IMG/VR virus record: IMGVR_UViG_3300021185_001607
Coordinates: 1-23,716 of that record
From: a virus
Length of the DNA stretch: 23,716 nt
Strand: one strand, 5' to 3'
Shown one piece after another: positions 1 to 23,716 of the stretch (the stretch's first letter is position 1; the number at the start of each line of letters is the position of its first letter). A model generated the notes under the pieces. That model was not told the origin of the DNA, ran no database searches, and saw only the letters and a list, made by a program, of their open reading frames with translations. Made by a program: the position numbers and the translations under genes.

Positions 1-1287
1 TTTACAGCCGCAGGATCAACGTATTTGAATTTGCTTGATCGAGTTTTACCTATATTAGATAACGAAGGCTGGAGTGTTGAGCTTGTTGATAACAGAATTA
101 AACATAGTTTCGAGTTTGAGCAAGTTACCGAAGACACTTTTTCTGGCATTACTTGGCCTAAAGGACATGTTGCAGAAGGACAATCTATTAAACTTAGAGA
201 TTACCAGATAGAATGTATTAATAGGTTCCTTGCTAACCCGCATGGTGTACAAGAAATAGCAACAGGTGCAGGTAAGACATTAATGACAGCCGCATTGAGC
301 TTAATGTGCGAGCCTTACGGTAGAACGTTGGTAATTGTACCTAACAAAGATTTAGTTAAGCAGACTCAAGAAGATTATATTAATTTAGGTTTAGATGTTG
401 GTGTATTTTTTGGTGATGAAAAGGATGCAAATCATAAACATGTTATTGCTACATGGCAAAGCATAAATTCTTTAATTAAAAGATATAAAGATGGTAAGAG
501 TAATGTTAGTATTGATATCTTAACAGATGATTTAATTTGTGTTATGGTAGACGAAGTACACATGGCAAAAGCAGATGTACTTCGTACAATGCTAACAGGT
601 CCTTTTGCAAATATTCCTATTAGGTGGGGTTTAACAGGTACAATACCTAAAGAAGAACACGAATATATTAGTTTAATTTGTAGCCTAGGTGGAGTATTAC
701 ATAGGCTACAGGCAAGCGAACTTCAAGATAAAGGTGTTCTGTCAAATTGCAATGTTAAGATATTGCAATATCAAGATAGTGTTGAATATAATAACTATCA
801 AGAAGAACTGTCGTTTCTTACTACTAACAAGGAACGTATGACAGAGATAGCAAAGAAGATGGATACGATTAGTGATACAGGAAATACGTTGATATTAGTA
901 GATCGGATTAAAACAGGTCAGATGCTAGAAGAAATGCTACCTGATTGTGTATTTGTATCTGGATCAATGAAAAGTAAAGATCGTAAAGCAGAATATAATG
1001 AAGTGCAGACACTAGACAATAAGATTATTGTTGCAACATACGGAGTTGCAAGTGTAGGCATTAATATACCTCGTATTTTTAACCTAGTATTAGTAGAACC
1101 GGGTAAGAGCTTTGTAAGAACTATTCAAAGTATAGGTAGAGGTATAAGAAAAGCAGAAGACAAGGACTTTGTACAGATATGGGATATTACTAGCAATGCA
1201 AAGTTCTCAAAAAGGCATCTAGGAAAACGAAAGAAGTTTTACGACGAAGCAAATTACCCACACGAAACACAGAAGGTAAAATATTAA
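1..1287 (+). CDS. uvsW: UvsW-like recombination helicase, 5'-truncated by window edge
   Basis: Superfamily 2 helicase of the T4 UvsW type, which remodels branched DNA (R-loops, stalled forks, recombination intermediates). The frame is open from base 1, so the N-terminus lies outside the window; 428 residues are visible. Seen motifs: Walker A ATGAGKT (visible residues 87-93), a DEVH box (184-187), the GLTGT motif III and the QSIGRGIR motif VI, in the correct order. The N-terminal part before the Walker motif matches the DNA-binding region expected for UvsW. A TTG at base 25 could be read as a start but is internal. The stop overlaps the next start as TAATG. Alternative: another phage SF2 helicase, but the length and T4-like context favour UvsW. 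Confidence 0.9.
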   Translation, partial: FTAAGSTYLNLLDRVLPILDNEGWSVELVDNRIKHSFEFEQVTEDTFSGITWPKGHVAEGQSIKLRDYQIECINRFLANPHGVQEIATGAGKTLMTAALSLMCEPYGRTLVIVPNKDLVKQTQEDYINLGLDVGVFFGDEKDANHKHVIATWQSINSLIKRYKDGKSNVSIDILTDDLICVMVDEVHMAKADVLRTMLTGPFANIPIRWGLTGTIPKEEHEYISLICSLGGVLHRLQASELQDKGVLSNCNVKILQYQDSVEYNNYQEELSFLTTNKERMTEIAKKMDTISDTGNTLILVDRIKTGQMLEEMLPDCVFVSGSMKSKDRKAEYNEVQTLDNKIIVATYGVASVGINIPRIFNLVLVEPGKSFVRTIQSIGRGIRKAEDKDFVQIWDITSNAKFSKRHLGKRKKFYDEANYPHETQKVKY

Positions 1288-1793
1288 TGAACATTTTAAC
1301 AGTAGACAATGAAACATATGATTTAGATAGACTTCCAACTGAAGTAGACGGAGATTTAAGGTATAGTGTATTAGATTATAGCAATGCCCAGGATGTAGAC
1401 TATCTCTTTATACCTTTGGTATTCTTAGAAAGTTTTTCTTGCCCAGCCGCCGTGCTAAGGATTGGAGAAGCTGAAATTAAAATGCCATTAGACTGGAGTC
1501 TAATTATAGGAGAACCAGATCACGGAGAACCTGAGATTGTAAATATAATGAGTTTGAATGACAGAGGCTTTAATGCATTTGAGTTTAATCCAGTAACTGG
1601 GTATAAGGCAAATTGGGTTCCGGTAGAAATTGTAAATGTATACCAAGAAGTAAAATGGTATGTTCCTAAATTAAAGTTTGGTCATATTTTGACTGTACCA
1701 TTGAACTCTGGTAAAGGATCTCCTTGTACATTTTTTCTCAAAGAGTCAACAAAGGTTCCTGAAGTACTTGACCTTAACAAGATTTGGTTTTAA
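1287..1793 (+). CDS. Conserved marine T4-like phage protein of unknown function
   Basis: A 168-residue soluble protein whose ATG shares one base with the uvsW stop (TAATG), so it is probably translationally coupled to it. No catalytic motif, signal peptide or membrane segment is seen. It has a recognisable core with MPLDWS followed by SLNDRGF and a later VEIVNVYQEVKWY stretch; from memory, similar proteins occur in cyanophages, but this was not searched. The strand-rich, aromatic sequence suggests a compact beta fold. Its place between a recombination helicase and a possible clamp-loader subunit suggests expression with the DNA metabolism genes. No function is assigned. Confidence 0.8.
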   Translation: MNILTVDNETYDLDRLPTEVDGDLRYSVLDYSNAQDVDYLFIPLVFLESFSCPAAVLRIGEAEIKMPLDWSLIIGEPDHGEPEIVNIMSLNDRGFNAFEFNPVTGYKANWVPVEIVNVYQEVKWYVPKLKFGHILTVPLNSGKGSPCTFFLKESTKVPEVLDLNKIWF

Positions 1794-1801
1794 ATAGTAT
1801 T

Positions 1802-2287
1802 ATGCCAGCAAAGAAAAAAGCATCAGCAGTACATAAAGTTAATATACATGAGATAATGAATGCAATTGATTATCGTAATGGCAATTATTATACTGACTTA
1901 GATGATGAAAGTAAGAAGTCTGTTAGTACATATATGGCACAACGTTGGGCGAGCCAGGTACAAGGATCGCAGGAAATACAGGAACATTACTTGCTAATGG
2001 TTAACGATTTAAGCAATATTGATTATATTGCAACTACTAGCGGACATGAAGAATTACGTTATAGAGTTTTAGCATTGATTGGATTGGGACAAAAATTAAG
2101 GCATGAATTTGTTCCGCCTAAAGGAGCAAAAAAAGATAAACTCAGAGAATGGCTTTTAGAGTTATTGCCTCATTGTAATGATGACGAGGTAGAATTGTTT
2201 AGAGAAATTAACGACTCATCGGTTCTACAGGATATTGCAACGGCTAAAAACACGCCAGATAAAAAGTTAAAGGATTTGTTTAAATAA
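1802..2287 (+). CDS. Conserved phage protein, possible gp62-like clamp-loader small subunit
   Basis: A 161-residue protein starting MPAKKKASAVHK. An upstream in-frame TTG at 1784 exists, but the ATG at 1802 is preferred. The core (AIDYRNGNYYTDL, then YMAQRWASQVQG, then EIQEHYLLMVND) and the C-terminal helical part with LLELLPHCNDDEVELF resemble the layout of T4-like clamp-loader small subunits, which work with gp44 to load the gp45 sliding clamp. The resemblance is distant and from memory. gp44 and gp45 are not in the window, so context support is only general. A TTTAAATA element at 1789-1796 lies 5 bases before the ATG and holds the upstream gene's stop. No Shine-Dalgarno sequence is evident. 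Confidence 0.6.
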   Translation: MPAKKKASAVHKVNIHEIMNAIDYRNGNYYTDLDDESKKSVSTYMAQRWASQVQGSQEIQEHYLLMVNDLSNIDYIATTSGHEELRYRVLALIGLGQKLRHEFVPPKGAKKDKLREWLLELLPHCNDDEVELFREINDSSVLQDIATAKNTPDKKLKDLFK

Positions 2288-2289
2288 GC

Positions 2290-2961
2290 ATGGGAAACGA
2301 ATATCAGTGTAAATACTGTATGAAGAAGTTTGCTAGGGAACGTACTCTATCAAGCCATATGTGTGAAAAGAAAAGAAGGTGGATGTCAATAGATGAACCT
2401 TCATCTAGAATTGCTTTTCAAGTTTGGTACGACTTCATGAAGTATGTTGCTCCACAGACAAAGAAGGAAAGAAGCACAGACGATTTTATTCGTAGCCCAG
2501 ATTATATAGGTTTTGTAAAGTTTGCTAATTACATTATAGAACTTAGACCCAATGAAACAAATAAATTTATTAAATGGTTGTTTAAGCATAGTGTTAAACT
2601 TAGTAACTGGAATAAGAGAGAAACGTATTCTCTTTATATACAAGAAAGTAGTAAGACTGAAACGGTTGAACGAGCAGTAGAACGCATGGTGTTGTTAATG
2701 AAGTCATGGAGCGAAGAAACCGGAAATTCTTGGGAACAATACTTCCAGGAGGTACCAACAGCAACAGCCGTGAATTCGATAGTCATGGGAAGAATTAGTC
2801 CTTGGATCATATATTCGTCTAAGTCTGCACAAGATTTATTAGATAGAATGGAACCAGGACAATTAGAGACGATAACAGGGAGCATAGACACAGAATGGTG
2901 GACAAGAAAAATCCAAAAGAGCCAGACGGAAGTGACTTGGTGCAACAAAATTTTGAATTAA
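2290..2961 (+). CDS. Zinc-finger protein of marine T4-like phages
   Basis: A 223-residue protein with a classical-type zinc finger at its N-terminus: C7-x2-C10, twelve residues, then H23-x-C25, a C2HC variant of the C2H2 finger, followed by a basic KKRR patch. The remaining ~190 residues are helical with many Trp and Tyr and no enzyme motif I recognise; GRISPWIIY around residues 167-175 looks like a family signature. From memory, homologues with the same arrangement occur in cyanophages without a known role. The finger suggests nucleic-acid or protein binding, possibly in transcription or replication control. It starts 2 bases after the previous stop, and its 3' end overlaps the next reading frame. 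Confidence 0.8.
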   Translation: MGNEYQCKYCMKKFARERTLSSHMCEKKRRWMSIDEPSSRIAFQVWYDFMKYVAPQTKKERSTDDFIRSPDYIGFVKFANYIIELRPNETNKFIKWLFKHSVKLSNWNKRETYSLYIQESSKTETVERAVERMVLLMKSWSEETGNSWEQYFQEVPTATAVNSIVMGRISPWIIYSSKSAQDLLDRMEPGQLETITGSIDTEWWTRKIQKSQTEVTWCNKILN

Positions 2962-3104
2962 AACAACATGTTGATAATTTAGAAAAGCTAGAAACTAGAA
3001 TTATGCTTTTTGACGAAAAACTTAGTTTATTAGCAAAAGAAATGATTGATATGAAGAACAGACAAGAAGAGCTAATACAGATTATTAAGCAGGGACTAAG
3101 ATGA
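2895..3104 (+). CDS. Small coiled-coil protein overlapping the zinc-finger gene
   Basis: A 69-residue charged protein with heptad-like spacing (LVQQNFELKQHVDNLEKLE onward), predicted as one long coiled coil. With the ATG at 2895 it overlaps the zinc-finger gene by 67 bases in another frame, which is unusual here. A GTG at 2940 would shorten the overlap to about 22 bases and has a GGAAG-like site about 8 bases upstream, giving a 54-residue protein; this start is plausible. The stop overlaps the next ATG (ATGA), so it is likely coupled to the DnaE-like gene. Function unknown; a small adaptor would fit a coiled coil. Confidence 0.6.
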   Translation: MVDKKNPKEPDGSDLVQQNFELKQHVDNLEKLETRIMLFDEKLSLLAKEMIDMKNRQEELIQIIKQGLR

Positions 3105-3685
3105 GTAGGCCAGACGTAGATATCGACTTTGGTAACCGAGAAGAATTATTGCATATACTAGATGGAGTTCCTGCGATGATTTCTACTAACCAAGGTGCAA
3201 CTAAACATAAGACTGGAGTATACTTTCATCCAGTTTCAGTTGATCCATTTACTGGTTGGTGCAACCTAGATCATAAAGAAGCAGAAGATGTAGGGTTCTT
3301 TAAGTTAGACTTGCTTAATGTAAGTTTTTATTCTAAAGTAAAAGATAAAGAACAGTTAGATAAATTAATTGCTAAGGAGCCTATTTGGGAGTTATTAACA
3401 CATGATGATTTTTCTAGTCAGCTCTTGCATGTCAACGGACACGGAGATATACTTCGTGCAACAACTCCAACTTCTATTGAACAATTAGCCGCAGTATTAG
3501 CAATGATACGTCCTGCAAAACGTTATCTTATAAACAAGAATTGGGATACTATAATGAAAGAGGTTTGGGTAAAACCTAAAACCGATGAATATTTCTTTAA
3601 GAAATCTCATGCAACAGCCTATGCTATTATGATTGTAGCACAGATGAATCTACTATGCGAAGAACTAACTAATCCATCTTCTTAA
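3101..3685 (+). CDS. Miniature DnaE-like (DNA polymerase III alpha-related) protein
   Basis: A 194-residue protein that reads like a compressed bacterial replicative polymerase (C-family, DnaE) core. RPDVDIDF at residues 3-10 matches the DnaE PDFDVDF motif carrying two catalytic aspartates (here D7 and D9). HKTGVYFHP (36-44) resembles the KHAGGVVIAP block. GFFKLDLLNV (65-74) matches LVKFDFLGL with the third catalytic aspartate (D70). PTSIEQLAAVLAMIRP (123-138) and FKKSHATAYA (166-175) match two later DnaE blocks. The PHP domain, most fingers, the thumb and C-terminal domains are absent; DnaE is usually over 1,000 residues. Polymerase activity is therefore doubtful; a regulatory or primer-end binding role is inference. 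Its 3' end overlaps the minus-strand gene by 17 bases. Confidence 0.75.
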   Translation: MSRPDVDIDFGNREELLHILDGVPAMISTNQGATKHKTGVYFHPVSVDPFTGWCNLDHKEAEDVGFFKLDLLNVSFYSKVKDKEQLDKLIAKEPIWELLTHDDFSSQLLHVNGHGDILRATTPTSIEQLAAVLAMIRPAKRYLINKNWDTIMKEVWVKPKTDEYFFKKSHATAYAIMIVAQMNLLCEELTNPSS

Positions 3686-4043: not shown

Positions 4044-4054
4044 ATTACTACTTC

Positions 4055-5133: not shown

Positions 5134-6093
5134 ATGAATGTTGTAGAGTCTACACTCCGAGGTAATCTTCCTCCTTTAAAAACAAATAGTAGCGGTTGGC
5201 TGACTATGAATTGTCCTATGTGCATTCACAACGGAGAAAGCCGTCCTGATTCAAAAGGAAGAGGCGGTTGGCGTTTTGATAATGACAAAACAGCATACCA
5301 TTGTTTTAACTGTGGGTATACAACTGGTTGGCGACCTGGAAGTAAGTTAGGTTTCAAGTTAATTAAGTTGATGCGAATATTAGGCATTGACGAAGCTGAA
5401 ATACAACGACTTAAAATTTTGTTATGGGATCAAGTTATTGAGGAAGTAGCAGAAGAAGAACAAGAAGTGTTTAATAAGGAATGGCCAGAAATTCCATATC
5501 CTTTTGAACTAACAGATTTAAGAGACGAGGCTGTTGAGTACCTAACAGGTAGAGGTATATTTGAATTAGCAAAGTGGGAGCAAACAGATCAAATAGGAAT
5601 GAAACAACGTATTATTTTACCTTATACAGATAATTCAAAAGTAGTTGGTTATATGGCACGTTGGATAGGCGATCCTCCTAAAGGAACTGCTAAGATGTTA
5701 AGAAAGTCTCCAGATGAATTTGTTTTTAATTTAGATAAGCAACCAAAGAAACGTAAATATACAATAGTATGCGAAGGTGAATATGATGCCTTAGCAATAG
5801 GCGGTGTTGCCATACTATCTAATAAAATTAGCAAATATCAAGCACAACTAATTGAGGATTTAGATACAGAACCGGTAATGTTAGCAGACAAAGATCCAGG
5901 TGGCAAGTCGTTAGTTGAAGATGCAATTAATTTAGGATGGAATGTTAGTTTTCCAGACTGGCCAGCAGGAATAAAAGATGCAAATGAGGCAATATTGCAT
6001 TTTGGAAGAGTAGCAACCTTGCAAAGTATATTAATGGCGATTGAACACTCGCCTTTGAAGGTTAAATTATTAATGAGGAGATGGTGTGTATAG
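5134..6093 (+). CDS. DNA primase, gp61/DnaG-like
   Basis: Synthesises RNA primers for lagging-strand replication with the gp41 helicase. The 319-residue protein has an N-terminal zinc ribbon (C27-x2-C30 and C57-x2-C60) followed by a basic region, then a TOPRIM domain: CEGEYDAL at 213-220 carries the catalytic glutamate, LADKDPGG at 250-257 the metal-binding aspartates, and KDANEA at 281-286 the third acidic motif. The length is close to T4 gp61 (about 340). No helicase domain is fused; the helicase is two genes downstream, as in T4-like replisomes. Its 3' end overlaps the next gene by 8 bases. A perfect host promoter puts it among early genes. Confidence 0.92.
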   Translation: MNVVESTLRGNLPPLKTNSSGWLTMNCPMCIHNGESRPDSKGRGGWRFDNDKTAYHCFNCGYTTGWRPGSKLGFKLIKLMRILGIDEAEIQRLKILLWDQVIEEVAEEEQEVFNKEWPEIPYPFELTDLRDEAVEYLTGRGIFELAKWEQTDQIGMKQRIILPYTDNSKVVGYMARWIGDPPKGTAKMLRKSPDEFVFNLDKQPKKRKYTIVCEGEYDALAIGGVAILSNKISKYQAQLIEDLDTEPVMLADKDPGGKSLVEDAINLGWNVSFPDWPAGIKDANEAILHFGRVATLQSILMAIEHSPLKVKLLMRRWCV

Positions 6094-6319
6094 TTTAACG
6101 TTGATCTGGAAAGAAGGACAAAATGATAATGCCTTTTGGGAAGAGGTAATCTTATGGATGACTACAGAATTTGGGTTACCCTCATATAAAGTAAGTAATT
6201 GGAAGGCTAGACCAATAACACGTTGGGCATATCAATCATCGCTAGACGAGATGAGATTTAAATTCCGTAATAAAGAAGACCAAATGTTAGCAAAACTTAG
6301 ATGGGGCAATGATGGCTGA
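6086..6319 (+). CDS. Small conserved phage protein between primase and helicase
   Basis: A 77-residue protein with a GTG start at 6086. The start is supported by GAGGAG at 6075-6080, five bases upstream. The sequence (SLTLIWKEGQNDNAFWEEV, then TEFGLPSYKV, then FRNKEDQMLAKLRW) has a pattern that recurs, from memory, in cyanophage small hypotheticals. No known motif. It overlaps primase by 8 bases and the gp41 gene by 11, so all three are probably translated together; a small replisome accessory is a reasonable but unproven guess. Confidence 0.7.
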   Translation: MYSLTLIWKEGQNDNAFWEEVILWMTTEFGLPSYKVSNWKARPITRWAYQSSLDEMRFKFRNKEDQMLAKLRWGNDG

Positions 6320-7706
6320 AGATGAAATTAAAGAATATAGTTACGAATTACAGAAACTTTTTTTAGAGTTTCTTATTTCTAGCAGGGACTTGGCGGCTAG
6401 GTGTAATAATGTATTAGATCCAGAATACTTTGATCGTAGATTGCGACCAGCGGCAAAATTTATTAAAGAATACATTACAGAACATAGTAACGTACCTGAT
6501 GCAAAACAACTTTCAGCAATTACTACTATAGAAATACAGGAAATTGGCGATAAAGCAGAAGAACATAAAAATTGGTTCTTAGATGAGTTTGAAGGATTTT
6601 CTAGACATAAAGCACTAGAAGGTGCAATTTTAACTAGTGCTGATTTGCTTGAAAAAAGTAATTATGGAGAGGTTGAAAATTTAATTAAGTCCGCAGTACA
6701 GGTTGGCCTTCCAAAAACATTTGGCACAAATTACTTTGAAAATCCTAAGTCCAGATTAGAAGGGCTTAAAGATGCAAATGGACAGTTAACAACCGGTTGG
6801 GCAACTGTTGATAATAAGCTATATGGTGGATTTAATAGAGGAGAACTAAACATTTTTGCAGGTGCATCTGGTGCTGGTAAGAGTTTGTTTCTGCAGAACT
6901 TAGGATTAAACTGGGCAAAAGCAGGATTGAATACTGTCTACTTTAGTTTGGAGTTAAGTGAGGGGTTGTGTTCTATGAGAATGGATGCAATGCTAACCGG
7001 AACATCTACTAGAGATGTTTACAAGAAAATTGATGATATTGATTTAAAAGTTCGCATGATTGGAAAGAAAGCAGGATGTTTACAGATTGTACAGTTACCA
7101 AATAGTGTTACTGCCAACGATCTATTAGCATGGATTAGAGAGTTTCAAACACAAAGGAAAGTACAAGTTGATGCAATACTTGTAGATTACTTAGACTTAA
7201 TGATGCCAGCAGGACAAAAAATTAGTGTTGCTGATTTATATATTAAAGATAAGATTGTTAGTGAGGAATTGAGAAACTTAGCAGTTACTGAAAATCTATT
7301 ATTTGCAACTGCATCGCAGTTAAACAGAAGTGCAGTAGAAAGTGTTGAATTTGACCATAGTATGATTGCTGGTGGTTTAAGTAAGATACAAACAGCAGAT
7401 AATGTGTTTGGTATCTATAGCACTCCTAGTATGCGAGAAAGAAATAGAGTACAACTACAGTTTATGAAGACAAGAAGCAGTAGTGCAGTAGGACAAAAAC
7501 TTGAATTAGACTTTGATCCAACAACATTACTAATTTCTGATTTAGCAGAAGATGCTGAACCGGTTGCAAGTTCAGCAACTACGGTGTTTAATAAATTGCA
7601 TAAAACATCTAGTACAATAGTTTCGCCAGCAGAGCAACCACAAGCAACATCTTCTTCTGTTAATAGGGATAAACTTAGAGGATTAGGATTAACGAGAGAT
7701 GTCTAA
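6309..7706 (+). CDS. Replicative DNA helicase, gp41/DnaB-like
   Basis: Hexameric 5'-3' helicase that unwinds the fork and recruits primase. The 465-residue length matches T4 gp41 (475). The N-terminal helical domain (1-140) is followed by a RecA-like ATPase: Walker A GASGAGKS at 185-192, YFSLELSEG at 211-219 with the catalytic glutamate, and Walker B ILVDYLDLM at 290-298. ATASQLNRSAVE (from about residue 335) matches the DnaB H4-type motif and the later region TADNVFGIYS the next conserved block. Two adjacent ATGs (6309, 6312) are possible starts. The C-terminal ~60 residues are low-complexity, Ser/Thr/Ala-rich. The end overlaps the minus-strand gene by 18 bases. Confidence 0.92.
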   Translation: MMAEDEIKEYSYELQKLFLEFLISSRDLAARCNNVLDPEYFDRRLRPAAKFIKEYITEHSNVPDAKQLSAITTIEIQEIGDKAEEHKNWFLDEFEGFSRHKALEGAILTSADLLEKSNYGEVENLIKSAVQVGLPKTFGTNYFENPKSRLEGLKDANGQLTTGWATVDNKLYGGFNRGELNIFAGASGAGKSLFLQNLGLNWAKAGLNTVYFSLELSEGLCSMRMDAMLTGTSTRDVYKKIDDIDLKVRMIGKKAGCLQIVQLPNSVTANDLLAWIREFQTQRKVQVDAILVDYLDLMMPAGQKISVADLYIKDKIVSEELRNLAVTENLLFATASQLNRSAVESVEFDHSMIAGGLSKIQTADNVFGIYSTPSMRERNRVQLQFMKTRSSSAVGQKLELDFDPTTLLISDLAEDAEPVASSATTVFNKLHKTSSTIVSPAEQPQATSSSVNRDKLRGLGLTRDV

Positions 7707-9777: not shown

Positions 9778-11393
9778 AAATAAAAAATATAAACAAAAGA
9801 ACAGCATTACTTGAAAGTGTATGTTATGATTTAGATAAAGAGCAACGATATATTGTTGAAGGAGTAGTATCAGCCTGGGACGATTTACTTGAGGTTGAGT
9901 TAAGACAAGATCAAATCAATAACTTATTTCCTTTAGTACAAAAGTTATCAGACGAAACAGGTAAAAATAGAACGGCAGTAGGATTAACAAAAGATAAAAT
10001 TGTAGATACAACAAAAGCCGCCAATGAATATTTAAATAAAGTTGGAAAATTATTACAAGATACAAAACCAGTAGAAAATTTTGATAATAAATTTGAAAAA
10101 TTAAAAACAGATATTAAAACTAAACTAGGTGCAGATAGCAAAATTACTACTGGGATAGAAAATTTAGGCAAATATGCTAAAATGAACCCTGGTAAAACAG
10201 CATTCGCTATTGGTGTTATGACTGCCTTAGTTGGTATTTCAACTGGTGGAAGTGCAATAGCTATTGGTGTTGCCGCTACACTCTTAAAAGGTTCTGTTGA
10301 AGTACTCAAAGGAGAGAAATTATCTACCGCTGTTGGAAAAGGATTAAAGACAGGTGTTATTTCTGGACTTGCCGCAGGTGCATTTAATGCAGTTGGCGAT
10401 TGGTTGTCAGGTTTACAGGCAGAGGTTGTACCATTTGAAGGATTAGATCAAATTACTTTTGATGTATCAGGTACAGATGTAATGCCAGGATTTGAATGGA
10501 AAGGCTCTATGAGTTTTGAGAATCTAACCGTTCTTCCTTCTGATGCAGATTTAGCTGGACAGTTAGTAGCAGAGTTTGCTAAAGGAGATGCATCAGCATT
10601 TGATGCCTTAGCAGAATTGGCAAAGAAGTCGTTTACACCAGAGTATACAGAGCAAATGGCACAATTTGTATCAAATGCAAAAGACATTGCTTTACAAAAT
10701 GATGCAACTTATCAAGCCATTGTACAAATTCAACAAGGAATAGCATCAGCCGCCGGCGGTGCAGTAGCAGGTAAGAGTGTAAGTGATGATAGAGGAGAAG
10801 ATCAACAAGAGTTATTTCAATCGTATACTAATAATGGAATTTTATTAACAGAAAGAAGAATTGAAAGATTGTTTGATACTGTAGGGTATTACAATACAAA
10901 TCCAAATATTGAATTTTTAGGCGAAGGACCAGTTTGGGATACCATTAAGAAAGATGCTATTGCAAAAGCAAAAGAACTTGCTAAGCCAACTGTAGATAAA
11001 GCTAAAACAGTTAGCGGAAATACAATGAATGTTGTTACAGCAGATAAACTTAAAAAAGCATGGAAGACAGCAGGAAGTCCAACTGACAGTGAAGTGCTTG
11101 CAAGGTTCTTAGAAAAAAATAAAGTATCTCCTGACGTTATTGCAAGTGCCTATAAAGATTTAAAACTTCCAGATCCAAATGACGATTCGTCACCAGAAGA
11201 AAAAGAAGAGAAGGAGTTAGCACTCCGTAAAACTCCACAGATGAAAGACGGACAATATGAGTTAGATCTTGCTTCATTGCCACCAGCAGTAAGGCAAGCA
11301 ACAAGCAATTTATGGGACGAGTTTAATAAACTTACTCCACAGGAACAAGAAAAGTTTAAAGCAGATCTAAAGAAATCGGAAAATATAACATGA
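9774..11393 (+). CDS. Probable head-internal protein with glycine-rich hydrophobic centre
   Basis: A 539-residue protein in ATGA overlap with both neighbours. The N-terminus MKIKNINKRTALLES has L12-L13-E14 before S15, a candidate prohead-protease site, with a second (IVE before G) at residues 27-30. Residues ~135-205 are a Gly/Ala-rich hydrophobic region (AFAIGVMTALVGISTGG, later GVISGLAAGAF) that could form a membrane hairpin or glycine zipper. Near residues 380-400 a FLGEG motif precedes a helix, echoing the processed N-terminus of the preceding protein. Residues ~423-463 hold an AWKTAGSPTDSEVLARFL module, recalled from marine phage virion proteins. The end is acidic and charged. Ejection with DNA and membrane insertion is inference. 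Confidence 0.6.
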   Translation: MKIKNINKRTALLESVCYDLDKEQRYIVEGVVSAWDDLLEVELRQDQINNLFPLVQKLSDETGKNRTAVGLTKDKIVDTTKAANEYLNKVGKLLQDTKPVENFDNKFEKLKTDIKTKLGADSKITTGIENLGKYAKMNPGKTAFAIGVMTALVGISTGGSAIAIGVAATLLKGSVEVLKGEKLSTAVGKGLKTGVISGLAAGAFNAVGDWLSGLQAEVVPFEGLDQITFDVSGTDVMPGFEWKGSMSFENLTVLPSDADLAGQLVAEFAKGDASAFDALAELAKKSFTPEYTEQMAQFVSNAKDIALQNDATYQAIVQIQQGIASAAGGAVAGKSVSDDRGEDQQELFQSYTNNGILLTERRIERLFDTVGYYNTNPNIEFLGEGPVWDTIKKDAIAKAKELAKPTVDKAKTVSGNTMNVVTADKLKKAWKTAGSPTDSEVLARFLEKNKVSPDVIASAYKDLKLPDPNDDSSPEEKEEKELALRKTPQMKDGQYELDLASLPPAVRQATSNLWDEFNKLTPQEQEKFKADLKKSENIT

Positions 11394-12562
11394 AGATAAA
11401 TGAAGTTATAATACAACATAAAAAAGTAATAACAGAAGCAAAAGCAAGAATTGATCATCCTGAAGATATTATCTTTGATGACAACGGAACACAAGGTGCA
11501 ATGAGAGCTCTTGATGCGATGGTACATGCTTCGCAAAATCACGGAGAGACAACTTCAATCAAATGGGACGGAAGCCCAGCAGTAATTTTTGGATGGATGG
11601 ATAAAAATTCTTTTATTGTAACAGATAAAGCAGGCATGGGTGCAAAGAAATATAACGGAAAGCCTACTAGTGCCGCAGATGTACAGTCTATGATTTTTAA
11701 CAGAAGGCCAGACGAAGAAGGTAGGCAGTATTATGCAAATAAGTTTGCAAGCATATATGAACTGTTAAAGAAGGCAACTCCAAAGAGTCTAGTTGGCCAA
11801 ATGATACAAGGTGATTTACTTTATATGAGTGCTGATGATATTGTTCATACAGACGAAGATGTTACATTTGGTCCAGTTAAAGTTAGATATACAATTGACA
11901 AAGATAATCCAGTAGGTGCTAGAATTGCCAAAAGCCAATGTGGTATAGCAGTACATAGTGTTTATGATTCTGTTGAATCTGCTAGTGCCGCAGACGGAGA
12001 ACCATCACCGGTAACTCCTAAATCTTTAGGATTGAAGGATAGTCCAAAATTAGTAATATTTGGTCCAGAAACACAGATACCAACAGATACTGAAATTTCA
12101 TTACCGATGTCAGAAGTAGAATCCTTAAGAAACTTAATTAAAAGCGGTCCAGCACAACTAATTGATGATATGTTAGATCCGTTTACTATGGGTAGTCTTA
12201 AAATAGCAAACTTACCAGAATTATTTAAAAAGTTTGTAAACTTTAAAGCCAGAGGCGGAGAAGATATTGGCTCTGCACCTGAATTAGCAAATGAATTTAT
12301 CAAATGGATCGAAGGTCCAGCAGGATTAACAGACAATAAGAAGAAAAATGTGTTATCGCACCTAGAACAATATAAAGCACCTTTTGAAATGGCTTGGCGT
12401 ATTGTTTCTGCACTAAGTAATATAAAGCATACAATTAAGGATCAGTTAGATACTCATGTAACTGGAATTAGAACAAACAAAGGCCACGAAGGTTTTGTAT
12501 CTGCTACACCGCATGGTAAGATTAAATTTGTTAATCGACCAAACTTTATGAAGAAGGACTAA
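11390..12562 (+). CDS. Ligase/nucleotidyltransferase-like phage protein with capsid-targeting-like N-terminus
   Basis: A 390-residue protein with motifs laid out as in covalent nucleotidyltransferases (DNA/RNA ligases, capping enzymes): K58-W-D-G-S-P resembles motif I (KxDG), Q140-G-D-L-L resembles the later acidic strand motif (DGEL), E367-G-F-V resembles motif IV (EG(V/L)V) and KIKF at 377-380 resembles motif V. From memory it belongs to a phage family of unknown function (DUF6267). The N-terminus MKINEVIIQHKKVITEA has I14-T15-E16 before A17, as in T4 internal proteins that are packed in the head and cut by the prohead protease. Biochemical activity is unproven; it could be a catalytically inactive structural relative. 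It overlaps the upstream gene as ATGA. Confidence 0.7.
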   Translation: MKINEVIIQHKKVITEAKARIDHPEDIIFDDNGTQGAMRALDAMVHASQNHGETTSIKWDGSPAVIFGWMDKNSFIVTDKAGMGAKKYNGKPTSAADVQSMIFNRRPDEEGRQYYANKFASIYELLKKATPKSLVGQMIQGDLLYMSADDIVHTDEDVTFGPVKVRYTIDKDNPVGARIAKSQCGIAVHSVYDSVESASAADGEPSPVTPKSLGLKDSPKLVIFGPETQIPTDTEISLPMSEVESLRNLIKSGPAQLIDDMLDPFTMGSLKIANLPELFKKFVNFKARGGEDIGSAPELANEFIKWIEGPAGLTDNKKKNVLSHLEQYKAPFEMAWRIVSALSNIKHTIKDQLDTHVTGIRTNKGHEGFVSATPHGKIKFVNRPNFMKKD

Positions 12563-16012: not shown

Positions 16013-16681
16013 ATGATAAAACATAATCTAATATACGACTATAAAAAATTAAATAGAATAGACGGTAAGCAACGTTTATACGAAACACCTGCTGGTGATA
16101 AAGTACCAAGTGTTACAACTATCTTATCAAAAACAGGCGACAATAGTGGTCTTATTGCTTGGCGTAAACGTGTCGGAAATGAAGAAGCAAATAGGATTTC
16201 AAAAGAATCAACTGGCTTAGGAACACTAGTACACACTCATGTTGAAAACTATCTACTAGGAAAAGAACGTCCGGGTGGTAAGAATCTTGTACATGAAATG
16301 GCTACAAGAATGGCAGATAAGATTATTAACGAAGGTTTGCCAAGTGTAACAGAAGTATGGGGAATGGAAGTTCAGTTATACTTTCCAGGTTTATATGCAG
16401 GAACAACAGATCTAGTTGGAATGTACGAAGGTGTTCCTGCAATTATGGATCATAAGACGTCTAAAGCATTAAAAAAAGAAGAGTGGATGGAAGACTATTT
16501 TATTCAGACTTGTGCATATGCTTTAGCACATAATGAATTGTACGGAACAGATATCAAAAAAGGTGTACTTTTCATGACCACAAGAAATGATAATTATAAA
16601 ACTTACATTATAGAAGGTAGTAAGTTTAAACAATATACAGAAAAATGGCTCGAAAGAGTGGAAACTTTTTATAGCAGATAA
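16013..16681 (+). CDS. PD-(D/E)XK nuclease, RecB/Cas4/MGME1-like
   Basis: A 222-residue single-domain nuclease with the RecB-type motif set in order: GLGTLVH (68-74) with the conserved His, E119 in WGMEVQLYF, GTTDLVG (130-136) with metal-binding D133, MDHKTS (145-150) with D146 and catalytic K148, and QTCAYA (165-170), the QxxxY motif. The length and lack of extra domains resemble MGME1 or Cas4-like exonucleases rather than RecB itself. The likely role is processing DNA ends or flaps in replication, recombination or host DNA breakdown. No Cas genes or CRISPR array are present, so a Cas4 role is not supported. A strong host-type promoter suggests early expression. Confidence 0.85.
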   Translation: MIKHNLIYDYKKLNRIDGKQRLYETPAGDKVPSVTTILSKTGDNSGLIAWRKRVGNEEANRISKESTGLGTLVHTHVENYLLGKERPGGKNLVHEMATRMADKIINEGLPSVTEVWGMEVQLYFPGLYAGTTDLVGMYEGVPAIMDHKTSKALKKEEWMEDYFIQTCAYALAHNELYGTDIKKGVLFMTTRNDNYKTYIIEGSKFKQYTEKWLERVETFYSR

Positions 16682-17199: not shown

Positions 17200-19509
17200 A
17201 TGAACGAAACGGTAAATGTAGTAAAAAGAAATGGATCAGTTGAACCATTAGATATCAACAAGATTCATGTAATGGTAGAAGAGGCATGTGAAGGACTAGC
17301 AGGAGTAAGTGTTTCCCAAGTAGAGATGAATGCAGATTTACAATTTACAGATAAGATTGCAACATCAGATATACAAGAAATTTTAGTAAGAAGTGCAAGT
17401 GACTTAATTAGTTTAGATCATCCAAACTATCAATATGTTGCGGCTAGACTTTTATTATACGGTCTCCGCAAAGATGTATTTGGTAAGTTTGATTATGCTC
17501 CTCTTTATGACCTAGTAAAAGAAAATGTTAAACAAGGAGTATATGATGCTGAGTTATTAGAAATTTACTCAGAAGAAGATTGGAATCAACTTGATACATA
17601 TATGAATCATACAAGAGACTTAGACTTTACATTCGCTGGAATGAGACAAGTAGCTGACAAATATCTAGTACAAGATAGAAGTTCAGGACATATATACGAA
17701 ACACCACAATATATGTATATGTTAATTGCCGCAACTATTTTTGCAAGTTATCCTGATAATAAAAGGTTATCATATATTCGCCGTTACTATGATGCTATTT
17801 CTACATTTAAAATTAATATTCCGACTCCAATTATGTCGGGTGTTCGCACTCCAATAAGACAGTTTGCTTCTTGCGTTCTAGTTGACGTAGACGACACATT
17901 ACCTTCGATCTTTAATAGTTCTTCTGCCGTTGGATATTACATTGCTCAACGTGCTGGTATTGGACTTAATTTAGGTCGTGTTCGTAGTATTGGATCTAAG
18001 ATTCGTGGTGGTGAAGTAGCACACACTGGAGTTATTCCTTTCCTAAAAGTTTTTGAATCAGTAGTGCGTTCATGTACACAAAATGGTGTTCGCGGTGGAA
18101 GTGCTACAGTACATTTTCCTATCTGGCATAAAGAGATTGAGGATATTATTGTACTAAAGAATAATAAAGGAACGGAAGATAACAGAGTCCGTAAGCTCGA
18201 CTATTCAATTCAGATCAGTAAGATCTTTTATGAAAGGCTAATTGAAAGTAAACCAATTAGTCTTTTTTCACCTCATGACTGCCCAGGATTATATGAGGCA
18301 TTTGGTGATAATGATGCATTTGACGAATTATATTTAAAGTATGAAAAAGACAAAAGTATTCCTAGGACTGAAATCCCAGCATATGAATTGTTTACAAGCA
18401 TTTTAAAAGAACGTGCAGAGACAGGACGTATCTATATTATGAATATAGATCATTGTAACCATCATAGTAGTTTTGATGCTAAAGTTAGAATGAGTAATCT
18501 ATGTCAAGAAATTACTTTGCCAACAACACCTATTCAAGGTCTTGAGGATGGTGCTGGAGAGATTGCATTATGTATCTTAAGTGCTATCAATGTTGGAACA
18601 TTAAGAAACTATGATGATTTAGAAAATTTATGTGATTTAGCAGTTCGTGCTTTAGATCAGATAATTGATTACCAAAATTATCCGGTTAAAGCCGCAGAGC
18701 TATCCACTAAGGCAAGGCGTAGTTTAGGAATTGGATATATTGGACTAGCACATTATCTAGCCAAAAGAGAATTACATTATAGTGATGACAAAGCCGCTCA
18801 AGAAGTTGGACGTTTAACAGAGGCTTTTCAGTATTATCTAATCTCGTCAAGTGTTGAATTAGCAAAAGAGAAAGGTGCTTGTTCTGCATATAATGAAACA
18901 AAATATAGTAGAGGTGTTTTACCTATTGATACATATAAAACTGATATTGATGAGTTCTTAGGAACCAAGTTAGAATTAGATTGGGAGGAGTTAAGAGCAA
19001 AAGTTAAAGAACATGGTATGAGACATAGTACATTATCAGCTCAGATGCCTTCAGAGAGTTCTTCTGTTGTTAGTAACGAAACAAATGGTATTGAACCACC
19101 AAGAGCATTTATGAATACTAAGAAAAGTAAGAAAGGTCCGTTAAAACAGATCGTACCACAGTATAATAAACTTAAAAACAACTATAGTTTCTTGTGGGAC
19201 GAAGGAGTCAATCAAGGCTATATTAAAATTGTTGCCGCAATGCAAAAGTTCTTTGATCAAGCAATTAGTGGCAACTGGAGTTATAACCCTAAGTTATATG
19301 AAAATAATGAAGTACCAATGAGTGTTATGTTTAATGACTTATTAACAACTTACAAATATGGTTGGAAAACAAGTTACTATCAAAATACTTACGACTCAAA
19401 AGGAGAAGACGAAGAATTATTAGGTGAGGTTCCTGAGGAGTTTACCCAACTTGCGGAGAACCCAAGTATTGTAATAGAAGAGGAAGAGTGTGAGGCATGC
19501 AACATTTAA
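17200..19509 (+). CDS. nrdA: Class Ia ribonucleotide reductase, large (alpha) subunit
   Basis: Reduces ribonucleoside diphosphates to deoxyribonucleotides for phage DNA synthesis. The 769 residues (E. coli 761) hold an N-terminal ATP cone (KRNGSVEPLDINKI from residue 9), catalytic C225, C435 in SNLCQEI (with N433 and E437) and C458, the redox and radical residues, the Y726-Y727 pair of the radical transfer path, and C-terminal C764/C767 that shuttle electrons. The tail pair is spaced CxxC rather than the wider spacing I recall for E. coli. With the ATP cone present, dATP regulation is possible. The last 13 bases overlap nrdB, so the two subunits are coupled. No intron or intein is seen. Confidence 0.97.
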   Translation: MNETVNVVKRNGSVEPLDINKIHVMVEEACEGLAGVSVSQVEMNADLQFTDKIATSDIQEILVRSASDLISLDHPNYQYVAARLLLYGLRKDVFGKFDYAPLYDLVKENVKQGVYDAELLEIYSEEDWNQLDTYMNHTRDLDFTFAGMRQVADKYLVQDRSSGHIYETPQYMYMLIAATIFASYPDNKRLSYIRRYYDAISTFKINIPTPIMSGVRTPIRQFASCVLVDVDDTLPSIFNSSSAVGYYIAQRAGIGLNLGRVRSIGSKIRGGEVAHTGVIPFLKVFESVVRSCTQNGVRGGSATVHFPIWHKEIEDIIVLKNNKGTEDNRVRKLDYSIQISKIFYERLIESKPISLFSPHDCPGLYEAFGDNDAFDELYLKYEKDKSIPRTEIPAYELFTSILKERAETGRIYIMNIDHCNHHSSFDAKVRMSNLCQEITLPTTPIQGLEDGAGEIALCILSAINVGTLRNYDDLENLCDLAVRALDQIIDYQNYPVKAAELSTKARRSLGIGYIGLAHYLAKRELHYSDDKAAQEVGRLTEAFQYYLISSSVELAKEKGACSAYNETKYSRGVLPIDTYKTDIDEFLGTKLELDWEELRAKVKEHGMRHSTLSAQMPSESSSVVSNETNGIEPPRAFMNTKKSKKGPLKQIVPQYNKLKNNYSFLWDEGVNQGYIKIVAAMQKFFDQAISGNWSYNPKLYENNEVPMSVMFNDLLTTYKYGWKTSYYQNTYDSKGEDEELLGEVPEEFTQLAENPSIVIEEEECEACNI

Positions 19510-20606
19510 AGAAAACCGTATTTAATAAAAATAAAGTAGATTATACAAAACAACCGATGTTTTTTGGTGAAGAATTAAACTCTCAACGTTTTGATGAGTT
19601 CCGTTATCCTGTGTTTGATAAGTTAACACAAACACAACTTGGATATTTCTGGAGACCAGAAGAAGTTAGTTTACAAAAAGATAGAAGTGATTATCTAAAC
19701 TTTACTGATTCTCAGAAGTTTATTTTTACAAGTAACTTAAAGTATCAAACGTTACTCGATAGTGTTCAAGGTAGAGGTCCGGCGATTGCATTTGTACCTT
19801 ATTGTTCGTTACCCGAGCTAGAAGCATGTATGATTACTTGGGATTTCTTTGAAACTATTCATAGCCGCAGTTATACTCATATTATTAAAAACATATATCC
19901 TGATCCTAGCGAGGTTTTTGATACTATTCTTGACGATGAAAAAATTGTTGCTAGAGCAGAAAGTGTAACAAAAGCATATGATGATTATATCAATGATGCA
20001 CAATATTACTCAGCCACAGGTAAAGGTGATTTACGAGAAATTAAGAAAAAATTATATCTAGCAATGGTTAATGTTAACGCATTAGAAGGTTTGCGTTTTT
20101 ATGTATCTTTTGCATGTACCTTTGCATTTGGTGAATTAAAAACAATGGAAGGTTCTGCTAAGATTGTTAGTTTAATTGCTAGAGACGAAAGTCAGCATTT
20201 AGCAGTTAGTACACATATTATTAAGAATTGGATGAAAGGTGATGATCCAGAAATGGTTTCTATTGCTAAAGAATGTCAAGATGAAATTGGACTCATTTAT
20301 GATAAAGTAGTAGAGGAAGAAAAGGAATGGGCAGATTATTTGTTTACAAATGGTTCTATTGTTGGACTAAACGAAAAACTATTACATATGTTCATTGAGC
20401 ATACTGCAAACAAAAGACTTAAGAGTTTAGGATTACCAATTCGTTATAACCAGAGTCCAAACGATAATCCGTTACCTTGGACACAACATTGGCTTTCAAA
20501 CAAAGGAGTACAAAATGCTCCGCAAGAAACAGAAATTGAAAGTTATGTTATTGGTGGAATTAAACAAGACGTAGACAAAGACACATTTACAGGATTTAAA
20601 TTATAA
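19497..20606 (+). CDS. nrdB: Class Ia ribonucleotide reductase, small (beta) subunit
   Basis: Carries the di-iron centre and tyrosyl radical used by NrdA. All 369 residues (E. coli 376) are uninterrupted, unlike T4 nrdB, which has an intron. Iron ligands are D88, E119, H122, E197, E231 and H234, and the radical tyrosine is Y126 in ETIHSRSYTH. The C-terminal tail (DTFTGFKL) should bind NrdA. Its ATG lies inside the nrdA tail (13-base overlap). The stop overlaps the next ATG as TAATG. No thioredoxin or glutaredoxin gene follows in this window. Confidence 0.97.
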   Translation: MQHLKKTVFNKNKVDYTKQPMFFGEELNSQRFDEFRYPVFDKLTQTQLGYFWRPEEVSLQKDRSDYLNFTDSQKFIFTSNLKYQTLLDSVQGRGPAIAFVPYCSLPELEACMITWDFFETIHSRSYTHIIKNIYPDPSEVFDTILDDEKIVARAESVTKAYDDYINDAQYYSATGKGDLREIKKKLYLAMVNVNALEGLRFYVSFACTFAFGELKTMEGSAKIVSLIARDESQHLAVSTHIIKNWMKGDDPEMVSIAKECQDEIGLIYDKVVEEEKEWADYLFTNGSIVGLNEKLLHMFIEHTANKRLKSLGLPIRYNQSPNDNPLPWTQHWLSNKGVQNAPQETEIESYVIGGIKQDVDKDTFTGFKL

Positions 20607-20932: not shown

Positions 20933-20938
20933 TAAATA
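20931..20938 (+). promoter_or_regulatory. Late-promoter-like AATAAATA before PAAR gene
   Basis: Seven of eight matches to TATAAATA, ending 5 bases before the ATG at 20944, so the mRNA may start at the start codon. It overlaps the stop of the upstream gene. Confidence 0.5.
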
Positions 20939-20943
20939 CTTGT

Positions 20944-21228: not shown

Positions 21229-21229
21229 C

Positions 21230-23092
21230 ATGGTTAATATTCCAGTAATCCCAGGAGTCAATGTTCAAACACAAGGAATACTCAATAAGTCTATTAAAGA
21301 CATAATTTGTGCGATACTCTTTGGCGGTATTGGAAACCTTTTAAAAGGAAATATCATATGTATTGAAGCAAATATAAACGAGATGCTTGAAGATGCTGGA
21401 TATGCTAACTTATATGATATAAAAGACGAATTAAGATTACTACAAGATGAAGTTAAAGCATTTAACGACCACTTAGGTATAAATGATATAACGCAAAGGA
21501 TTAATGATGCGTTAGCAGAAGTAAGATATCTACTAAGTCTAGGAGGATTATGTCCTGTTCCAATTAAGATACCAAATATTAACGGAGATATATTAGATCA
21601 AGTCACTGATAATGTTTTTAATAACTTACAAGGTGTATTAAGTGCATTTGGTCCATTGCTAAAACCTAAAATTTGTATTGATGCACAAGGAAGAATAAAC
21701 ACAGGATCTTTTGATCCAGGTAGTATACTTGATAATATCAGGAAAGCATCACAAAATGCGTTAAATGCTGGAAGTGTAATACCATCAAGTATTACATCAG
21801 GCTTTAATAACCAAATAAGCGGTGTTACAAGCAGTATTAAACAGGCAAGGGCAATAGAACTATTTCCAGACTTTAGACACAAGCATAACTTATTAACAGG
21901 AGCACCTGTTGTTGCTGGACAACCAGCGATAACTATTGCCGCTAGACCATCAGATGCTGATATTGCCGCAGTAGCTGGACTTTCGACTACAAGTGGCCCA
22001 GCATTTGAGGCCGCAGGAGCCTCTTATCCTCCTCAAGGAAATCCTAATTTAACAGATGCAACTAAGCAAGCACAACAGTTGGTTGCCAATGTTGCAAATA
22101 GTGCAAACTATCCTATTAATGCTGATAAAAATCTATGGGCAAGAGCATTGGGACCTGAAGTATATGCATTAGCATTAGATGCTTTAAACGGAGATGACCC
22201 ATTTGTAGGTCAATCTCAAGATGTCTATGATTATTGTGGAAGAGTAGTTTCGCAAGAAACACAAACTATTACCGGAGATCCATTAGGTGCAGGATTGTCA
22301 GATACTACAGATGCAAATCTAACACCAACACCAATAAACTATAGTTTACTATGGATTGATGCACCAGCACAAAGTAGGGTTGGTTGGGCAGTTAGTGGAA
22401 TTACAGAAGAAGCATTAGTACCAGATGACTATGGTTGCGAAGTACTAACACCAGCACTAGCATTAAACCCTGAAATTGAGTTATTTCAAGGCAAATCTCA
22501 TATACTAAGTCTGCCACCAAGTAACCCAAATGTTAATTCTTTGGAAATAAGCAATTTTGGCTATAAAGATAACGGTTTAAGTGCCGTACGGACCCAAATT
22601 TCCTACGAAATGCCAGTTGGACAGGAATTTTACATATACGAAGCCAAATTAGACGGTTCAGGTAATAGAGTACCCGATATAACGAAGAGATGGACAAATG
22701 GACTGGTTCGTTTTGAATTTTCTGAATACTTAGATGAAGCAAATGGCAGAAACGAAGATCAAATTACTTGGGCTCAATCATTTATTCCGGATTTAATTCC
22801 AGATCCAAATGATACCAATAAGCAATTTGATTCTCAAGGACGATTGTTAAAGAGTACTTTGATACAAGCACCTTTACCAACCGAACCTGGTGAAGTTTGG
22901 ACTGATAATGGATCAGTAGTATACGATAGTCCTACAGGTGGCAATCCAATCTTAGTAAAAACTTGGAAACGAGCAGTAGCAAATCTAGCAGTTGGCGAGA
23001 ATATGCTTATTGAAGTAGACAGTACCTTCCCTGATTACCTAACCTACAGTAATGAGGCTGGTACCGTATTTGGGCTACTAAAAATAACGTAG
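21230..23092 (+). CDS. Large virion structural protein, probably baseplate/tail
   Basis: A 620-residue protein starting one base after the PAAR stop. The N-terminal third (IPVIPGVNVQTQGILN, then SIKDIICAILFGGIGNLLKG, then NINEMLEDAGYANLYDI) is helical and resembles a marine T4-like virion protein family, from memory. The middle (~residues 230-320) is Ala/Thr/Pro-rich, and the C-terminal half is beta-rich with aromatic residues (NYSLLWIDAPAQSRVGW, FYIYEAKLDGSGNRV, NGLVRFEFSEYL), possibly a receptor or host-contact domain. No enzyme motif is seen. Neighbouring the PAAR tip suggests baseplate association. Confidence 0.65.
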   Translation: MVNIPVIPGVNVQTQGILNKSIKDIICAILFGGIGNLLKGNIICIEANINEMLEDAGYANLYDIKDELRLLQDEVKAFNDHLGINDITQRINDALAEVRYLLSLGGLCPVPIKIPNINGDILDQVTDNVFNNLQGVLSAFGPLLKPKICIDAQGRINTGSFDPGSILDNIRKASQNALNAGSVIPSSITSGFNNQISGVTSSIKQARAIELFPDFRHKHNLLTGAPVVAGQPAITIAARPSDADIAAVAGLSTTSGPAFEAAGASYPPQGNPNLTDATKQAQQLVANVANSANYPINADKNLWARALGPEVYALALDALNGDDPFVGQSQDVYDYCGRVVSQETQTITGDPLGAGLSDTTDANLTPTPINYSLLWIDAPAQSRVGWAVSGITEEALVPDDYGCEVLTPALALNPEIELFQGKSHILSLPPSNPNVNSLEISNFGYKDNGLSAVRTQISYEMPVGQEFYIYEAKLDGSGNRVPDITKRWTNGLVRFEFSEYLDEANGRNEDQITWAQSFIPDLIPDPNDTNKQFDSQGRLLKSTLIQAPLPTEPGEVWTDNGSVVYDSPTGGNPILVKTWKRAVANLAVGENMLIEVDSTFPDYLTYSNEAGTVFGLLKIT

Positions 23093-23093
23093 G

Positions 23094-23273
23094 ATGGAGA
23101 TATTTTTGATATGTTTGGTATTGTTCTTGCTCATTGTAGCAATTATGAGTATAGGCCTCCTAAAAGGCCGTTCTGTAAGAGGAACATGTGGTGGTGCAGG
23201 TTACGTTTGCTCCATGTGTGGAGAGGTAAGTGTACTCCCTCAGAAGAAAAAGGTTGACATTACGGACCTTTAG
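23094..23273 (+). CDS. NqrM-like small membrane protein
   Basis: A 59-residue gene starting one base after the previous stop. It begins with a membrane helix (residues 3-23, containing LFLLIVAIMSIGLL), then RGTCGG with C32, and C39-x2-C42-G. NqrM, the maturation factor of the sodium-pumping NADH:quinone oxidoreductase, has the same layout: one helix ending in a similar AMxIG stretch, then GR...GSCGG and further cysteines. From memory NqrM has four conserved cysteines, whereas only three follow the helix here, and the protein is shorter. Function as a phage metabolic gene is inference; it could be another small Cys membrane protein. The -35 of the next promoter lies inside its 3' end. Confidence 0.55.
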   Translation: MEIFLICLVLFLLIVAIMSIGLLKGRSVRGTCGGAGYVCSMCGEVSVLPQKKKVDITDL

Positions 23274-23282
23274 TGCTATGTT
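23254..23282 (+). promoter_or_regulatory. Sigma70 promoter with extended -10
   Basis: TTGACA at 23254-23259, 17-base spacer, TATGTT at 23277-23282, preceded by TGC (extended -10). The predicted start is near 23289, giving a leader of about 30 bases with AAAGGA at 23305-23310. Confidence 0.65.
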
Positions 23283-23318
23283 ATACATAATAGTGTAATA
23301 TATGAAAGGATTTAAGTG

Positions 23319-23699
23319 ATGCATGTTAGTAAATTGTCTATTGTTGCGGCGTTGTCGCTCATAATGATGTTAATAACATTTAACATAGCAACGGCTCACG
23401 AATATTCATACAAGCATTATCATAATTCTCATGATAGTTGGGACGTTGACAGGTATGATGATTATAGTTACTATCACAGTGATTATTATAAACGTTATAA
23501 AAGAAATGATCGCGAAAGAGAACATTGGGATTGGTATTATGACGATAAGAGTGGCCCAGAAAGAGAGGACACATATTACATGCCAACACCTTCTCCAATA
23601 ATCGTGCAACCTGTTCCTCCTATAGGTTATGAAAGAGTTATTGCATATGATAACTTATGTCATTGCAATATATACGTTCTTGTACCTATCAGACAGTAA
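23319..23699 (+). CDS. Exported Tyr/His/Asp-rich small protein
   Basis: A 126-residue protein. ATG 23319 is preferred over GTG 23316 because AAAGGA lies 8 bases upstream. The N-terminus MHVSKLSIVAALSLIMML and onward to TFNIATA is a typical signal peptide with an AxA-like cleavage site after residue 26. The mature part is low-complexity, rich in Tyr, His, Asp and Arg, then a Pro-rich segment (PTPSPIIVQPVPP) and a C-terminal LCHCNIYVLV with two cysteines. I do not recognise the family. It is probably periplasmic or outer-membrane. It has its own host-type promoter, so it may act early, for instance on the infected cell envelope; this is inference. Confidence 0.7.
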   Translation: MHVSKLSIVAALSLIMMLITFNIATAHEYSYKHYHNSHDSWDVDRYDDYSYYHSDYYKRYKRNDREREHWDWYYDDKSGPEREDTYYMPTPSPIIVQPVPPIGYERVIAYDNLCHCNIYVLVPIRQ

Positions 23700-23716
23700 T
23701 CTTAAAACCCTACCTA

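Follow-up and report, generated by a model that had tools for sequence, protein, structure and literature searches.

Exclusion of the word GCWGC from a piece of an uncultured jumbo phage and from part of its relatives

A phage replication region without GCWGC

We analyzed the IMG/VR virus record IMGVR_UViG_3300021185_001607, a stretch of 23,716 bp classed as linear and here called the window, from which the five-base word GCWGC (GCAGC or GCTGC) is missing. The window (genes in Table 1) comes from a T4-like jumbo phage that is uncultured and distantly related to PA5oct, and it carries a replication and ribonucleotide reductase module. The top named relatives of its DnaB-like helicase are PA5oct-type phages, at about 50% identity. 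Gene order in the module resembles that of PA5oct (Wroclawvirus, Arenbergviridae), but the two helicases are only about 49 to 50% identical to those of the PA5oct type (DnaB, ~50%; the other helicase, 49%), which falls short of the close protein similarity to PA5oct by which membership in the Arenbergviridae was judged. T4-type genes for capsid, portal, prohead protease, terminase, and tail sheath are present on G001, a 116-kb contig of the nearest relative (locus L007). A second contig (IMGVR_UViG_3300048546_000554; L210) overlaps the end of the window and continues the same phage or a near-identical one; it has no GCWGC either (11,854 of its 15,911 bases covered).

At a G+C content of 35.5%, the window holds neither GCAGC nor GCTGC, and a repeat count gave the same result. 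The initial annotation had claimed this total lack, together with about 14 sites expected from base composition and about thirty occurrences of GCSGC; the computed values agree, with a mononucleotide expectation of 8.2 + 6.45 = 14.7 sites and 33 GCSGC (GCCGC, 27; GCGGC, 6). A maximal-order Markov model expects 26.1 sites when symmetrised (17.7 + 7.3 on the plus strand), and the resulting observed-to-expected ratio (O/E) of 0/26.1 lies below the value of 0.1 taken to define avoidance. GCAGC/GCTGC is by a wide margin the most depleted 5-mer of the window (z, -5.1), followed by CACTG (7 versus 21.1 expected); the probability of finding 0 when 26.1 are expected is 4.6e-12, and that of 0 given 24.95, multiplied by 512 words, is 7.5e-9. 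Synonymous-codon shuffling yielded 29.5 ± 2.5 sites (minimum of 22 in 200 shuffles), and a stricter shuffle in which the next base was also kept yielded 26.3 ± 2.7 (minimum of 19 in 300 shuffles). The claim was to be given up if the count revealed several sites or if an equally low number followed from a Markov model or from codon use; instead, 0 sites stand against 26 to 30 expected.

The same exclusion is visible in codon use, for which open reading frames (ORFs) were called at 60 amino acids or more. Alanine codons that precede a codon starting with GC are GCC (27) or GCG (5), never GCA or GCT (0 each), whereas those preceding other codons are GCA (318), GCT (142), GCC (39), and GCG (14), so that GCA and GCT make up 460/513. 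This is the pattern that the initial annotation had described, in which Ala-Ala pairs begin with GCC or GCG although single alanines are mostly GCA or GCT. Compared with the codon-shuffle null, GCCGC is in excess (28 versus 4.5). GCSGC is thus enriched rather than avoided, which indicates a specificity for GCWGC and not for GCNGC; exclusion of GCWGC with enrichment of GCSGC matches a known Type II specificity. Out-of-frame GCWGC is gone from G001 (0 versus 15.8) and from the contig G006 (0 versus 8.5), which indicates that the pressure acts on DNA and not on translation or codon pairs.

We followed the fate of individual sites in 84 aligned ortholog pairs (mean identity, 70%) that compared avoiders with 12 less-avoiding loci. 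Of 96 GCWGC sites that these loci contribute to the alignments, the avoiders retain none, versus 7 to 28% for seven control word pairs. At 68 of the 96 sites, at least two of the five positions differ; 28 differ by a single base, which is the middle base in 21 cases and a C>T or G>A change in 2. GTAGC and GCAAC, the products of deamination, stand at 1.06 and 1.00 of expectation, and GCCGC stands at 1.78.

Table 1. Features of the window and of related contigs
Feature	Location	Strand	Basis or remark
DNA helicase (phrog_16)	1..1287	+	Truncated by window start; marker for relatives and tree
phrog_11778 protein (annotated DNA polymerase)	3101..3685	+	Protein-family match
DNA primase (phrog_47)	5134..6093	+	Protein-family match
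DnaB-like replicative helicase (phrog_19)	6309..7706	+	Protein-family match
DUF6267 protein	11390..12562	+	Protein-family match
Exonuclease (phrog_298)	16013..16681	+	Protein-family match
Ribonucleotide reductase large subunit	17200..19509	+	Protein-family match
Ribonucleotide reductase small subunit	19497..20606	+	Protein-family match
Overlap with contig L210	17653..23716	+	99.93% identity across 6,064 bp
TRAP transporter cluster DctP, DctQ, DctM, DctP, DctP	L210:6156-11835; L088:10235-15952; L209:16349-22066		Pfam matches in G001 copy
TnsA-like nuclease-fold protein, G001 ORF 91	L090:11196-11645		Pfam; homologues in non-avoiders PA5oct, G004
PDDEXK_15 nuclease-fold protein, G001 ORF 123	L092:6494-7003		Pfam; homologue in non-avoider G003

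Extent and patchiness among related phages

Observed and Markov-expected GCWGC counts were compared for larger contigs of relatives, some from viral records and others from bins of metagenome-assembled genomes (MAGs). The nearest relative, G001, has 2 sites where 129.0 are expected. The largest avoiders are a 335-kb contig (G021:C57), in which no exact terminal repeat was found, with 35 sites versus 412.7 expected, and a 285-kb contig (G027), with 49 versus 515.8. Two contigs are free of the word (G024:C2, 60 kb, 0 versus 50.3; G025:C19, 38 kb, 0 versus 40.5), and G032 (67 kb) has 1 versus 68.5; G032 shares identical proteins with G001 and may thus be the same phage. The 89-kb G006 is intermediate (11 versus 85.1), and a 354-kb contig recruited via the PA5oct terminase (G042) is normal (610 versus 713.2). 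GTGCAC, a different word, is almost gone from the two largest avoiders (2 versus 63.6 in the 335-kb contig, L169-L185; 5 versus 50.9 in the 285-kb contig, L540-L554). In addition, the MAG bin G024, named “Rickettsiales bacterium MED657” (L191-L193, L201, L202), has stretches of contigs C1, C2, and C3 without GCWGC (0/23.9 in C1 and C3 jointly, 0/50.3 in C2); all three are also depleted in AGCT, and the bin therefore seems to contain several phage pieces.

To place these counts, five sets of loci were recruited with the window’s helicase, ribonucleotide reductase, the HTVC008M helicase, the PA5oct terminase, and the T7 polymerase. Each set comprises the best 80 matches of its scan (for the first four, the best 80 of at least about 600 stretches), and near-identical contigs were kept, so that counts do not represent independent events. 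With exclusion defined as an O/E of 0.1 or less at an expectation of at least 8, GCWGC is excluded in 15/61 testable helicase-recruited and 22/71 testable reductase-recruited loci, compared with 0/32 for the HTVC008M helicase, 2/78 for the PA5oct terminase, and 0/80 for the T7 polymerase. Ranked by depletion among 5-mers, GCAGC comes first in 32/80 loci of the helicase set and 27/80 of the reductase set. We then surveyed the 505 5-mers for which 10 or more loci were testable, widening the helicase set by the window and 8 of 15 MAG loci (the other 7 being a near-duplicate, L154; short, L152 and L156; or distant, L158-L161). GCAGC is excluded in 22/70 helicase-set and 22/71 reductase-set loci, and any other 5-mer in at most one locus of either set. 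T7 with GATC is the textbook case of restriction-site avoidance and served as a positive control: across 80 T7-type loci, GATC is excluded in 77 and GCAGC in none.

Exclusion is patchy even among close relatives. The O/E values of 11 close MAG loci are 0/16.5, 0/8.9, 0/13.5, 7/19.1, 1/19.7, 2/4.6, 25/20.9, 1/19.9, 0/14.9, 4/4.3, and 0/15.1. On a tree of 86 helicases, with avoiders defined by an O/E of 0.25 or less (31 rows avoiding, 28 intermediate, 25 not avoiding, and 2 not classed), the avoider label has to change 17 times, and well-supported branches force 14 of these changes, although small contigs make some labels noisy. We accordingly rejected a single avoider clade of one origin. No comparable avoidance occurs in 25- to 49-kb stretches of the named phages Atu_ph07 (16/18.0), Vibrio 2.275.O (46/57.1), XaC1 (46/36.5), and RaK2 (21/16.7), in 47 kb of HTVC008M (47/42.3), or in 49 kb of PA5oct (67 versus 52.9 expected). 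The spread of relatives’ levels between 0 and 1 suggests that exposure to a restriction system comes and goes.

Other short words are excluded lineage by lineage. AGCT is excluded in 9/87 helicase and 12/80 reductase loci, CATG in 1/89 and 8/80, TGCA in 4/89 helicase loci, and GTAC in 3/80 reductase loci; single cases are strong (AGCT, 0/183 in G006; CATG, 0/61 in L250; GTAC, 0/53 in L219). HTVC008M-type loci exclude GATC (22/80), ACGT (15/60), and CATG (13/80), and a few 5-mers, these in three loci at most. Such lineage-specific, Type II-like words are what one would expect if the Type II systems of hosts vary, as described in PMC6286503.

Several further depletions were observed. The window itself is more weakly depleted in the palindromes AGCT (31 versus 74.8) and GCGC (1 versus 11.3). 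The AGCT-excluding lineage, consisting of G006 (L102-L106), G009 (L111-L112), and G015 (L144-L146), also depletes TCTAGA, TCATGA, TCAAGA, TCACGA, and GCAAGC, but not TCAGGA and not strongly TCCAGA, a degenerate set of 6-mers that fits no recognised word. In Agrobacterium phage Atu_ph07 (L083, 40000-65000), CCAGG (0 versus 14.8) and CCCAG (0 versus 13.2) are absent.

Candidate agents of selection

The pattern is very probably restriction-site avoidance, imposed by a Type II system of the host that cuts GCWGC but not GCSGC, a specificity of the TseI/BbvI type. The initial annotation had suggested that a restriction system of a present or past host selects against GCWGC, or else a nuclease of phage or host. 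There is good support for selection because the depletion scales to 335-kb contigs, affects every frame, is patchy and lineage-specific, escapes via GCSGC, is accompanied by exclusion of other words in related phages, and has a counterpart in the T7 control. The analysis shows the exclusion itself, its extent across the relatives’ large contigs, its specificity, frame independence, escape route, and patchiness. The agent, for which the proposal had left a choice, is an inference, as is the question of which hosts carry it: a host restriction enzyme is most likely responsible, but neither a restriction enzyme for GCWGC nor a methyltransferase to match it was found, and no host was identified. 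On this model, the window belongs to an uncultured jumbo myophage, presumably lytic, and its hosts, present or recent, would carry a Type II system directed against unmodified GCWGC. Phage DNA would be cut at any GCWGC on entering such a host, and variants losing sites, chiefly through silent substitution of C or G in the middle position, would survive until nearly all sites were lost.

Searches for protective and cutting functions bear on this model. C5 methyltransferase family PF00145 had no match in 20 + 20 = 40 virus contigs (the 335-kb contig was not searched), which is consistent with unprotected DNA. The N4/N6 family PF01555 gave one match, below the cut-off, in 34 virus contigs (G002) and matches in 1/6 MAG bins (G023); a Methyltransf_24 protein encoded by G001 is without known link to DNA. 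Deazaguanine modification of DNA, considered as an alternative strategy on account of QueD genes in PA5oct, was dropped after QueC gave only 2 sub-cut-off matches in 43 records. G001 has 134 ORFs of at least 60 amino acids and 110 of at least 110, and 98 of the latter were scanned against Pfam and PADLOC. PADLOC returned 14 mostly weak matches that were not traced to proteins, including mad3 (2.3e-15), LmuB (1.1e-10), mad8 (3.9e-9), and DndD (4.5e-4).

A number of observations weigh against host restriction. Some relatives carry the word at intermediate (G002, 179 kb, 70 versus 182.2; G022:C2, 90 kb, 20 versus 79.5) or normal levels (G003, 142 versus 145.1; G004, 194 versus 177.8; G005, 279 versus 259.7), and 19 of the 61 testable helicase-set loci retain 0.3 to 0.6 of the expected sites and 10 more than 0.8. 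No GCWGC restriction enzyme was found. The contigs are fragments, none shown to be complete, so that a phage methyltransferase or nuclease may be encoded outside the stretches covered. The 11 close MAG-contig relatives are scattered over bins named for many unrelated taxa; these are probably contaminating contigs, and the bins were rejected as a guide to the host. A search with the TRAP DctM protein matched 245/398 sampled genomes (best, 48%) and named no host. Finally, M.AbaBS3I, which methylates GCWGC in uncultured freshwater Chloroflexi, is listed outside any restriction system in the available text of PMC6329791.

The DctM protein belongs to a transporter cluster that begins on L210 92 bases past the window end (L210:6064 is window position 23716), beside the ribonucleotide reductase region. 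Proteins of the G001 copy have homologues of 73 to 96% identity in L210 and identical ones in L209, and related DctP proteins are present in the 354-kb G042. The literature search on TRAP transporters as phage auxiliary metabolic genes returned gut-bacterium work only. Among 51 proteins from the G001 loci L087-L089, there are also members of the TctC, Gram-negative porin, malonyl-CoA decarboxylase C-terminal domain, APS kinase, and AdoMet decarboxylase families.

An improbable alternative is a GCWGC nuclease of the phage’s own, encoded or carried by it and directed at host DNA or at rival phages, with avoidance of the word as self-protection. A shared nuclease could explain why GCWGC is the commonest excluded 5-mer over a broad related set. 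Many phage proteins, moreover, are without a family match, and G001 encodes a TnsA-like and a PDDEXK_15 nuclease-fold protein; yet phages that do not avoid the word have relatives of both proteins (PA5oct and G004 of the TnsA-like one, G003 of the other), which leaves a phage-encoded nuclease unsupported. In the scans of 98/110 G001 ORFs, none of the families listed bears the name of a Type II restriction enzyme (for the second set, 25 of 28 Pfam families were covered), and the several different Type II-like words, varying by lineage, are better accounted for by varying host systems. We hold it equally doubtful that such a nuclease, for example, a phage endonuclease, is a shared trait of the jumbo-phage lineage or community, with site loss taking the place of methylation as self-protection. 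No better are the prospects of a host factor other than restriction, such as another nuclease or a structure-specific enzyme acting on unmodified GCWGC: the pattern alone cannot separate restriction from another GCWGC-specific nuclease, but Type II restriction agrees with the T7/GATC control and with the co-exclusion of short palindromes of the classical kind.

Decay of methylated sites is less probable still. C5-methylated GCWGC would be lost by deamination instead of selection, and a C5 methyltransferase for this word is known (PMC8936443, available text). However, deamination as the main cause is excluded by the scarcity of C>T and G>A fates relative to middle-base changes, the deamination products show no excess, in contrast to GCCGC, and PF00145 is unmatched in the virus contigs. 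Bias of composition, codons, or codon pairs has next to no likelihood: 24.3 of the 26.3 sites expected in the window are in frame 0, in codon pairs of the Ala-Ala type, and the Markov-normal G003 lies below its codon-shuffle null (137 versus 162.8 ± 7.4; minimum of 141 in 200 shuffles), so that this null runs somewhat high, but the Markov and codon-shuffle expectations for the window and the missing out-of-frame sites of G001 and G006 contradict such a bias, and PA5oct, of similar composition, fits the null (66 versus 65.9, coding DNA).

Comparison with known systems

Phages with contigs of 285 to 335 kb can evidently rid themselves of some nine out of ten restriction sites where several hundred are expected; the excluded words differ by lineage and would form a readable record of the restriction systems encountered. 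For uncultured phages, this would provide a testable predictor of hosts, namely, those that methylate and cut GCWGC.

BbvI and ApeKI are both enzymes of GCWGC specificity. The same specificity is given for TseI in the available text of PMC6329791, and M.AbaBS3I, from the same source, is a precedent for the word without being a claim about the host. The set excluded here is exactly that of TseI and M.AbaBS3I, with GCSGC spared; what differs is that the phages studied here showed no enzyme of this kind and that none could be linked with a host. The literature searched contained no account of jumbo or uncultivated phages avoiding GCWGC, and we make no wider claim; in the portions available, the word does not appear in PMC9516812, PMC12570018, or PMC9426551 and appears in PMC11094077 only within a primer.

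Site avoidance is a known phage strategy, mostly against orthodox Type II sites, according to the available text of Rusinov et al. 2018 (PMC6286503). As in the lytic double-stranded DNA phages considered there, a short Type II-like word is almost totally lost relative to a compositional null, and the 40 virus contigs searched here are without a C5 methyltransferase match. In contrast to those phages, the present cases are jumbo-phage contigs from uncultured lineages, with hundreds of sites expected, and the word is a 5-bp degenerate palindrome. The exclusion of GCWGC is thus probably a known evasion tactic in an unusually strong form, notable for the size of the contigs and for the lineage-specific excluded words.

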